42,339 nt of DNA, taken from positions 1 through 42,339 of the forward strand of contig CALVAS010000009.1 of assembly GCA_944325585.1 (NCBI GenBank), given 5' to 3'. The notes under the pieces are model-generated. The model saw nothing but the letters and a program-made list of their open reading frames with translations, was not told where the DNA came from and ran no database searches. The position numbers and the translations under genes were made by a program. Each line of letters starts with the position of its first letter. The stretch's first letter is position 1. This document shows positions 17,477-35,005 of the stretch, in pieces. The stretch is from Candidatus Gastranaerophilales bacterium. Its GTDB lineage: Bacteria > Cyanobacteriota > Vampirovibrionia > Gastranaerophilales > Gastranaerophilaceae.

Positions 17477-18268
17477 TTACCAAGGGTAATCCGGTTTAAT
17501 TTGCCAACCGTCACCAATAATTTTTGCAGAACAGTAACGTCCGTTTCCATTTTTACTGCAGCTGGCAGCAATTTCCACGGGCGTTTTATCATACCCATAA
17601 GGCAGAATACCTTTAGCACTCTTTTCCGATGTTTTTGAAAACATAAACACATCACGCCCTATGCGGTTAGGATTTTTACCACCGTTGACATCGACAATAA
17701 TCCAATCGGCTTCATTCGCTATACCTTCCGGATTATATCCCGCTGTAATAATCAATACAAGAACACCATCCGGCAGATAAAAAGCTGTTCTTGCCGGAGC
17801 TGCAACTACTGAAAAATCAAACTTTGTATTATTCAACTGTGTCCAGGGCTGAGAGATATTAAAGCCACAGTCTTTATATGTCTTGCAAACATGAACAACA
17901 TTTAAATATGGTTTCCAGTATTCGTTAAAATAGTTTTCAGCCCCTATATCAAAACCTGACGGCCAATACTTGTAATCTTCATGATCTACTTCCGAACGTT
18001 CAAGAGCCTGATTGAGTGTTGTATAAACCTTTTGAAGTTTTGAAACAGTTACCTGTTTCTGGTATTTGCCGATTAGCGACGGCAGCGTCATCGCCGCAAC
18101 TATTCCGATTATGCCGAGTGTTATAAGAACCTCTGCCATGGTAAAGGCGGCTTTGCGGCTAGATTTGTCATTTTGGACACCTGAGGTGAGGATGTTTTTA
18201 TCAGCATTGATAGATTCTGAGTCAAGCTCAGAATGACATGATAGATGCACATGCGACGGCTTTGTCAT
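17477..18268 (-). CDS. Type IV prepilin-like protein A, probably phase variable (true start 18410, out of frame here)
   Basis: The mature part is a class of pseudopilin: cleavage is expected before Phe in 'KAA|FTMAEVLITLGIIG', with Glu at position +5 and a hydrophobic helix up to 'AMTLPSLIG'. A globular C-terminal domain of about 180 residues with paired cysteines follows. The -1 residue is Ala, not the usual Gly. The in-frame ATG at 18268 lies inside repeat DNA. The frame stays open upstream to a poly-G tract at 18370-18381. The only start with a good ribosome binding site (AAGGAG, ATG 18410) is on the other side of that tract and is out of frame at 12 G; 11 or 14 G would join them and give a leader of about 88 residues. 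I infer an OFF state, not a dead gene. Confidence 0.8.
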   Translation of the reverse strand: MTKPSHVHLSCHSELDSESINADKNILTSGVQNDKSSRKAAFTMAEVLITLGIIGIVAAMTLPSLIGKYQKQVTVSKLQKVYTTLNQALERSEVDHEDYKYWPSGFDIGAENYFNEYWKPYLNVVHVCKTYKDCGFNISQPWTQLNNTKFDFSVVAAPARTAFYLPDGVLVLIITAGYNPEGIANEADWIIVDVNGGKNPNRIGRDVFMFSKTSEKSAKGILPYGYDKTPVEIAASCSKNGNGRYCSAKIIGDGWQIKPDYPW

Positions 18269-18330
18269 TCCGGCCTCCGAGCCGGAATCTATTTCTTTAT
18301 TTAGAGATTCTGAATCAAGTTCAGGATGAC
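18212..18330. repeat. Three palindromic REP-like repeats inside the prepilin A leader
   Basis: Three short inverted repeats of similar design lie in a row. 18212-18237 has ATTCTGAG and CTCAGAAT arms. 18263-18290 has ATTCCGGC and GCCGGAAT arms. 18305-18330 has ATTCTGAA and TTCAGGAT arms. They belong to the widespread intergenic 'GTCATTCTGA' type palindromes. Here they are in the pilin reading frame, encoding 'HPELDSES', 'EIDSGSEAG' and 'CHSELDSES' without a stop. Confidence 0.75.
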
Positions 18331-18359
18331 CAATTGTTAAATTGTAATCAGGAGCCGTT

Positions 18360-18410
18360 TTACAGGTTGCCCCCCCCCCCCTGAAACTCAGTCATATCAA
18401 TAGTTTCCAT
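18360..18410 (-). other. Prepilin A 5' leader frame, stopped after the poly-G tract
   Basis: ATG 18410 has AAGGAG 9 bases upstream and reads METIDMTEFQ, four Gly codons or part codons, then N-L and TAA at 18362-18360. With one G fewer the frame runs on as G-G-G-A-T-C-K-T-A-P-D into the pilin. Confidence 0.75.
18370..18381 (-). repeat. Poly-G tract (12 G on the coding strand) in prepilin A
   Basis: A run of 12 G, beginning with the third base of codon 10, in a genome region that is otherwise AT rich. Long mononucleotide runs change length by slipped-strand mispairing. At 12 the ATG and the pilin are in different frames; at 11 or 14 they are in the same frame. Confidence 0.85.
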
Positions 18411-34070: not shown

Positions 34071-34826
34071 TTATTTTGAATGCATTTGTTCAATCATTTG
34101 ATTAGTAGTAAGCCCTCCTTTTTCGGCAAGTGAACAAAATAATCCGTCAAGAGTTAGGAATGTTTCTCCTGAATTAATCGTTGTAGTAAACACGAATACA
34201 TCATATCCCCATTTGTTGGGGCCTTTTTTCCCGTTTATATCCACTGTAAACATGGCAAAGTTGTTACTGCTGTAAGGTATTAGTATAACCCCGTTTTTTA
34301 AAACATAAACAATGCTCCCATTTAATAATTCATTTTTTCGCAAACCTGAACAACCGCCTGACTGATTATATGCATCTTCGTCACTCATATCTGTATCACT
34401 GTTTGCCTGCAAAACTGTATCATAACCTTCATAATCAGGAATACAGCCTTTTTGGAAAGCATTACCTTCACAAATTGTAATAACTTGAAGATTTTGCCTG
34501 ATTTTATCTGTAAATAAGTTACATTCATTGAATCTGCCAAACAAATCGTCAGGTACAGGACTTCCATCAGGCAAAGTATACTTTTTACACTTTCCATTAT
34601 CGTCATATTCTACACAAACTCTGCTATAACGTGCCTTTTTCCAGTAATAACATTCAGGAATATATCCTAAATCAGCCCCGATTTTCCCCCAGGCTTGCTG
34701 AATCAATGAATAAGCAACTTTAAACTGTTCTTTTAAAACTTTTTTTTGATAACGTCCAATTAACGAAGGTAAAGTCATTGCAGCAACTATACCGATTATG
34801 CCTAAAGTAATCAAAACTTCTGCCAT
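34071..34826 (-). CDS. Type IV prepilin-like protein B, probably phase variable (true start 34939, out of frame here)
   Basis: Paralogue of prepilin A. From 34826 the frame begins 'MAEVLITLGIIGIVAAMTLP', which is already the mature pilin helix. The codons before it read 'KEFISA|FTMAEV', so cleavage before Phe needs an upstream start. The pilin frame is open back to the poly-G tract at 34904-34917. On the far side ATG 34939 has AAGGAGG 5 bases upstream and a promoter, but at 14 G it is out of frame. With 15 or 12 G the frames join, giving a leader of about 36 residues. The mature protein is about 250 residues with several Cys, including 'CSGLRKNELL' and 'NLFTDKIRQN'. It probably belongs to the same pilus or pseudopilus as prepilin A. 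Confidence 0.85.
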   Translation of the reverse strand: MAEVLITLGIIGIVAAMTLPSLIGRYQKKVLKEQFKVAYSLIQQAWGKIGADLGYIPECYYWKKARYSRVCVEYDDNGKCKKYTLPDGSPVPDDLFGRFNECNLFTDKIRQNLQVITICEGNAFQKGCIPDYEGYDTVLQANSDTDMSDEDAYNQSGGCSGLRKNELLNGSIVYVLKNGVILIPYSSNNFAMFTVDINGKKGPNKWGYDVFVFTTTINSGETFLTLDGLFCSLAEKGGLTTNQMIEQMHSK

Positions 34827-34900
34827 TGTGAATGCTGAAATAAATTCCTTATAATTTGTGATTAAAGAAGGAAAAACCCTCTCAGGAACTGCTTTACGGG

Positions 34901-34939
34901 TTACCCCCCCCCCCCCCGAATTTCAAGTATAGTCTGCAT
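34901..34939 (-). other. Prepilin B 5' leader frame, stopped after the poly-G tract
   Basis: ATG 34939 reads MQTILEIR, four Gly codons and TAA at 34903-34901. One more G would turn the stop into Val and continue as V-T-R-K-A-V-P-E into the pilin. Confidence 0.75.
34904..34917 (-). repeat. Poly-G tract (14 G on the coding strand) in prepilin B
   Basis: A run of 14 G right after codon 7, in AT-rich DNA. It is the longest mononucleotide run in the window, in the same place relative to the pilin as the tract in prepilin A. Confidence 0.85.
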
Positions 34940-34976
34940 TTCAACCTCCTTAAATTAGTTTATCTCGCATTAATTT

Positions 34977-35005
34977 AATATAATACATCTCTTTTTTTTG
35001 TGCAA
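34977..35005 (-). promoter_or_regulatory. Sigma-70 promoter of prepilin B
   Basis: TTGCAC (35005-35000), a 17-base spacer containing eight A in a row, and TATATT (34982-34977), 37 bases before ATG 34939. Confidence 0.75.

Follow-up and report, generated by a model that had tools for sequence, protein, structure and literature searches.

A tract of 14 G residues in the leader of a type IV-like prepilin gene, here called prepilin B, leaves its start codon out of frame with an otherwise intact pilin, and the same module recurs across the genome. We think it probable that these modules bring about slipped-strand phase variation of a large repertoire of type IV-like prepilins. The window analyzed is the whole 42,339-nt stretch of contig CALVAS010000009.1 (C9) from a Candidatus Gastranaerophilales bacterium, whose genome (hereafter G000; 1.76 Mb in 105 contigs) is probably a metagenome assembly.

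In the mechanism we propose, the conserved module would supply the only usable start of the prepilin, and a slip during replication that gains or loses G would move the frame of this start codon into or out of the pilin frame. In the ON state, the prepilin would be made, and prepilin peptidase would remove the leader including the glycines encoded by the tract; in the OFF state, translation would mostly stop a few codons past the tract. We infer both that replication is the slipping step and that the change is reversible within a population. As this genome has about 34 modules, and the relatives examined have similar counts, cells would display shifting subsets of a large pilin repertoire. Surface display is likewise inferred, as is any benefit, whether escape from phage or immunity or a change in adhesion.

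Prepilin B and the G-tract module

The elements of the two tract-bearing leaders in the window are listed below.

34977..35005, minus strand: promoter-like TTGCAC-N17-TATATT, called from sequence; the promoter-like sites of this region are not clearly above chance
34945..34951, minus strand: Shine-Dalgarno AAGGAGG, called from sequence, with the ATG 5 bases downstream
34901..34939, minus strand: short open reading frame of the present OFF state, comprising ATG and six codons, Arg and the tract glycines, and TAA
34904..34917, minus strand: 14-G tract, the frame switch; the ATG frame and the pilin frame join at 15 or 12 G
34833..34903, minus strand: post-tract part of the prepilin B leader, open in the pilin frame and without a start codon
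34071..34832, minus strand: mature prepilin B, beginning at the Phe of FTMAEVL and running to the stop codon; intact despite the OFF state
18370..18381, minus strand: 12-G tract of prepilin A, in the same module, with the start ATG at 18410; the ortholog in G012 has G13
17477..18145, minus strand: mature prepilin A, likewise beginning at the Phe of FTMAEVL and running to the stop codon

Read on the minus strand, the leader of prepilin B begins with ATG at 34939 and encodes M Q T I L E I, followed by one C, the 14 G (34917-34904) and TAA at 34903-34901. The initial annotation had described AAGGAGG, this ATG, seven codons and then 14 G, all of which we confirmed, but it omitted the single C before the tract; the stop that it placed directly after the tract in the ATG frame is there. 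The post-tract leader reads VTRKAVPERVFPSLITNYKEFISA^FTMAEVL and remains open in the pilin frame down to the stop at 34071, confirming the claim of an open pilin frame that reaches back to the tract, and frame arithmetic agrees that 12 or 15 G would fuse the two frames. As there is no ATG, GTG or TTG between the tract and the Met inside FTMAEVL, prepilin B does need a start beyond the tract, as had been argued. The two hexamers of the reported promoter are present at the stated spacing, but the promoter claim itself is weak, with 9 such sites in the region compared to 5.0 +/- 2.7 in shuffles.

Runs of at least 9 G or C occur at only two places in the window, both of them in prepilin leaders, whereas shuffles predict 0.01 nine-mer matches. 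Genome-wide, we counted 39 G runs of at least 8 nt compared to approximately 3.5 expected. A chance homopolymer was rejected because the runs are far above shuffles and both window tracts lie in prepilin leaders.

All 37 tracts of at least 9 G in G000 were read, and about 34 of them sit in one module: 30 lie ahead of a prepilin within reach and 4 follow the same leader right at a contig end, while 3 are unrelated. The prepilin N-terminal motif itself is found at 55 places in the genome. The module consists of a Shine-Dalgarno sequence, an ATG, a short leader of up to ~11 codons, a tract of G10-14 and the prepilin, its commonest form being AAGGAGCT...ATG-AAA-xxx-CAG-ACT-ATG-ATT-GAA-TTT-C(A)-G10..14-CAACCCGTAAAACAGCTCCTGAG. 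Prepilin B had been presented as a second phase-variable pilin. The tract as the element that decides the frame is well supported; B is, however, one of about 34 modules in the genome and not a second case.

Prepilin B carries the N-terminal motif A^FTMAEVLITLGIIG, with Glu5 present. It falls just under the curated N-methylation motif cut-offs (17.2 against 21.2 bits; 14.5 against 16.3), and prepilin A falls just above them. The mature part of B shares 52-72% identity with nine relatives in the alignment, some of which have the tract module. Its structure model predicts a helix at residues 4-56 and a strand-rich body (mean pLDDT 70.9). A Foldseek search with this model returned no match below E 0.001, and the best structural matches on a second look, gonococcal pilin 5vxx (Z 3.8, 131 aligned) and FimA 3sok (Z 3.7), have low Z scores. 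We regard membership of B in the type IV prepilins as likely, although the predicted fold, with such Z scores, does not prove it. A prepilin peptidase (PF01478) is encoded at G000:C3:24994-25383.

The same pilin family also has members that lack the module and carry a short leader of the ordinary kind. One relative of B in the same genome, L042, has the plain leader MKIINYKKS^FTLAEVL and no tract, indicating that the module has been added to an otherwise ordinary prepilin.

Prepilin leaders contain inserted repeat elements of the type GTCATTCTGAGCTTGACTCAGAATC, both in the window (18146-18369) and at many loci of G012; these elements are read in open frame and give cleavable leaders of up to ~200 codons. 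Between G000 and G012 (L251/L252), the leader and N-terminus of prepilin A are 97% identical and the flanks align well; between these flanks the body is highly divergent, as if it had been exchanged or were evolving very fast.

Frames and tract lengths across loci and relatives

Five genomes were read closely: G000, G012, G007 and G011 of the same genus, and G034 of another genus in the same family. The four relatives, spanning two genera, have the same module design. In G012, G007 and G011 the module is recognizably that of G000, and in G034 the leader is different and the tract is mostly G10, with the layout unchanged. Most tracts in these five genomes lie ahead of prepilins.

Over 59 genomes, tracts of G10 or longer reach up to 111 per genome within the family (G022, with 111 tracts of at least 10 G in a 1.8 Mb genome), and genomes from the order's other families have almost none. 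A few family members have none, e.g., G005, in which there are only 14 prepilin matches and no tract in any of those read. Named relatives with the pilin are mostly labeled Candidatus Gastranaerophilales, and the module was not found in viral contigs.

Tracts of the genus G026 occur in other contexts, e.g., GGACAAGC-G10-TAAACCGCTC, and the pilin test is mostly inapplicable there. At L264 (G026:C18) they are located within or close to genes of a cluster for surface polysaccharides (aminotransferase, glycosyltransferase 9, Wzz and methyltransferase). Surface-polysaccharide clusters are a usual home of phase variation, and these tracts indicate that those of the family extend beyond pilins.

We examined the reading frames at 117 testable loci, i.e., those with a readable start and a readable pilin. 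At 114 of the 117, the pilin frame can be read back to the tract without a stop, and the joined frame is free of stops at 108, compared to 12 of 216 for the other two frames over the same stretch (Fisher p ~1e-61, indicative only since the loci are partly related). A wider search found joined leaders of up to ~200 codons that are still open. The silent copies are undecayed, with a pilin body of at least 150 aa at 98 of 102 OFF loci, and all three registers are found among the loci. One copy whose tract is broken by an A (GGGGGAGGGGG) is exactly in frame, as expected of a switch locked ON.

Two further module tracts in G000 (L100 in C7 and L102 in C16) are also interrupted by A; because these are out of frame, they may be locked OFF. 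At a few loci an ATG lies five codons ahead of the Phe, and there the tract may not be decisive. A non-canonical TTG start in ATTGAA, which would turn many OFF loci ON, was rejected as a general answer, as the TTG is missing at many loci; even with it, prepilin B is still out of frame.

The initial annotation had proposed comparing tract length across strains. We ran this comparison on relatives and observed changes confined to the tract in two ortholog pairs, neither of them prepilin B. Prepilin A of G000 and G012 differs by 18 substitutions in 462 nt, with G12/G13 as the sole indel, and L071/L187 differ by 11 substitutions in ~462 nt, with the sole indel, G13/G12, separating an OFF from an ON copy. 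Tract length is unchanged across 41 substitutions in L081/L170, and it differs by three G in the more distant pair L085/L162. No close ortholog of B with the same leader was found among the relatives compared. These loci meet three criteria of a contingency locus, namely a 5′ homopolymer, a unit change that joins an intact frame and, in orthologs, a tract length that varies beyond its surroundings. Calling prepilin B itself phase-variable rests on comparison between species and between paralogs, and the bias toward one OFF register is not something that free slippage alone predicts.

Register bias and the mechanism of frame joining

The 80 clean loci from the four genomes of this genus divide into 60 that are one G too long, 10 that are one G short and 10 that are ON, whereas of the 28 loci in G034, 23 are one G short, 4 are ON and 1 is one G too long. 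Prepilin B, which needs one more G, belongs to the less common OFF register in its genus. Tract length tracks the flanking bases such that the main register is kept, being mostly 13, 12 or 11 G depending on the flank (permutation p below 5e-5). In the main register, a stop in the frame of the start codon follows the tract by no more than 13 nt at 77 of 80 loci in the genus and at 27 of 28 in G034; in the other OFF register, reading continues for a median of 30 nt. Since free slippage would be expected to spread the loci over three registers, it is insufficient on its own to account for so uneven a distribution. The bias suggests selection for a default-OFF state that is one slip from ON, and the dominance of one register together with the early stop, while pointing to such selection, leaves room for programmed slippage. 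Of the loci at which 12 G would be the in-frame length, 7 of 27 are ON, compared to 2 of 45 for others (p = 0.012), as expected if tracts drift toward a preferred length.

If the assembled lengths were wrong and the true tract were in frame in every cell, the gene would simply be ON. Homopolymers are error-prone, and of the 39 tracts of at least 8 G in G000, 12 are no more than 150 nt from a contig end (0.7 expected). Either a mixture of tract lengths or ordinary assembly problems could produce this enrichment, which is only suggestive of switching. However, the same OFF register recurs across several assemblies and follows the flanking bases, neither of which random error would produce, and the early stop in the OFF frame is conserved. 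We find it scarcely credible that assembly error explains the tracts.

Published C. jejuni rates are dominated by deletions at G10 and above (Table 2, PMC8224891). By these rates, the main register of this genus would turn ON most easily; the register of G034 would be the harder one, so deletion bias is not the full answer. Loss of mismatch repair was rejected as a cause of slippage, as MutS1 and MutL are both encoded in G000. Their presence does not favor high slippage, nor does it exclude it.

Modules of G000, G012, G007 and G011 carry AGCTCCT after the tract, complementary to the Shine-Dalgarno AGGAGCT and at a near-fixed distance, and some G034 modules have TCTCCTT there, complementary to AAGGAGA. 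The frame in which this motif is read varies from locus to locus, so the motif looks like a nucleic-acid signal rather than a protein one. Pairing between it and the Shine-Dalgarno in G000 is stronger than in shuffles (-10.9 vs -7.0 kcal/mol) and close to that of swapped partners (-10.5 kcal/mol). A hairpin hiding the Shine-Dalgarno is accordingly without support from locus-specific covariation, as it hardly beats swapped partners.

The main rival to slipped-strand phase variation is programmed recoding, in which the DNA would be fixed one off, RNA polymerase (or the ribosome) would slip on the tract to give a set in-frame fraction, and the early stop would end the unshifted product. Programmed RNA slippage would also select a fixed register, and the single dominant register kept through flank changes, the early stop conserved within it and the above-shuffle pairing of the post-tract motif with the Shine-Dalgarno all suit it. 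The tracts, at 10 nt or more, are also near the length of the RNA-DNA hybrid. Against this, intact genes and orthologs are also found in the ON register and in the other OFF register, the slip required is opposite in direction in the two genera, the hairpin lacks locus-specific covariation, and a relative has tracts in other types of surface gene. We consider programmed recoding unlikely.

The OFF copies could instead form a repertoire of silent cassettes that donate by gene conversion to an expressed pilin, in the manner of Neisseria pilS and pilE, the shared leader and N-terminal DNA serving as homology. That DNA is indeed conserved, prepilin A of G000 and that of G012 have sharply different bodies within conserved flanks, and B-like bodies bear different leaders in different species. 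Yet the OFF copies are full-length with their own Shine-Dalgarno and start, so the criterion for a pilE/pilS-type system is not met, and the tract would be left unexplained. We judge silent cassettes very improbable as the explanation, although gene conversion could act in addition.

We put forward only tentatively, and with low confidence, a view of the module as a portable default-OFF cassette. Selection would hold nearly all of the repertoire in one exact OFF register with an early stop, each gene being one biased (or programmed transcriptional) slip from expression, and all would be tunable together via slippage efficiency.

Comparison with known systems

Most known cases of phase variation by simple repeats come from pathogens. 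In Mycoplasma vlhA-type families, as here, there are many paralogs, most of them OFF at once and each set by repeat length; there, however, trinucleotide repeats upstream control the transcription of lipoprotein genes.

The nearest precedent, by analogy, is the sortase-pilus G tracts of Bifidobacterium breve, in which a tract of ~11-12 G in a pilus gene of a gut commensal slips to fuse two ORFs and turn pili ON; slippage during replication was demonstrated by deep sequencing, with the ON length becoming enriched in mice (PMC9187656). That system differs in comprising two sortase pilus clusters of a Gram-positive organism, not dozens of prepilins, and in having its tract outside a cleaved type IV leader (PMC9187656). 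The poly-G phasome of C. jejuni, with 18-39 phase-variable genes per genome (PMC6321876), similarly switches surface genes by frame through tens of intragenic tracts, a number comparable to that found here, but these are mostly 9-10 G and lie in many kinds of surface gene (PMC6321876, PMC8224891), whereas here one prepilin superfamily dominates, the tracts are 10-14 G, and MutS and MutL are kept. Neisseria varies its type IV pili both by homopolymer slippage (pilC) and through a pilin repertoire (pilE/pilS recombination), the tract being in the pilus-tip protein PilC and most pilS copies lacking repeats (PMC5953494). Here, by contrast, each full-length prepilin gene of the repertoire has its own leader tract.

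In the open-licence literature searched, we found no link between Gastranaerophilales or Melainabacteria and pilin phase variation, an absence that is not proof; one paper on these bacteria mentions type IV pilus genes only, without phase variation. Nor was a prior report found there of a multigene prepilin set with its own switch in each cleavable leader in gut relatives of cyanobacteria. If our interpretation is correct, these modules are among the densest sets of contingency loci known, in uncultured, non-photosynthetic cyanobacterial relatives from the gut, and would bear on the phage and host encounters of these bacteria. It also raises the puzzle of why one OFF register is kept, and automatic annotation would be prone to call wrong start codons or pseudogenes for such pilins.

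A G tract adjoins mutS in three genomes of the genus, at G000:C8:27479 (L070; mutS at G000:C8:27527-30058), G012:C4:139260 and G011:C1:335219. In G000, this tract is part of a tract-bearing prepilin locus.
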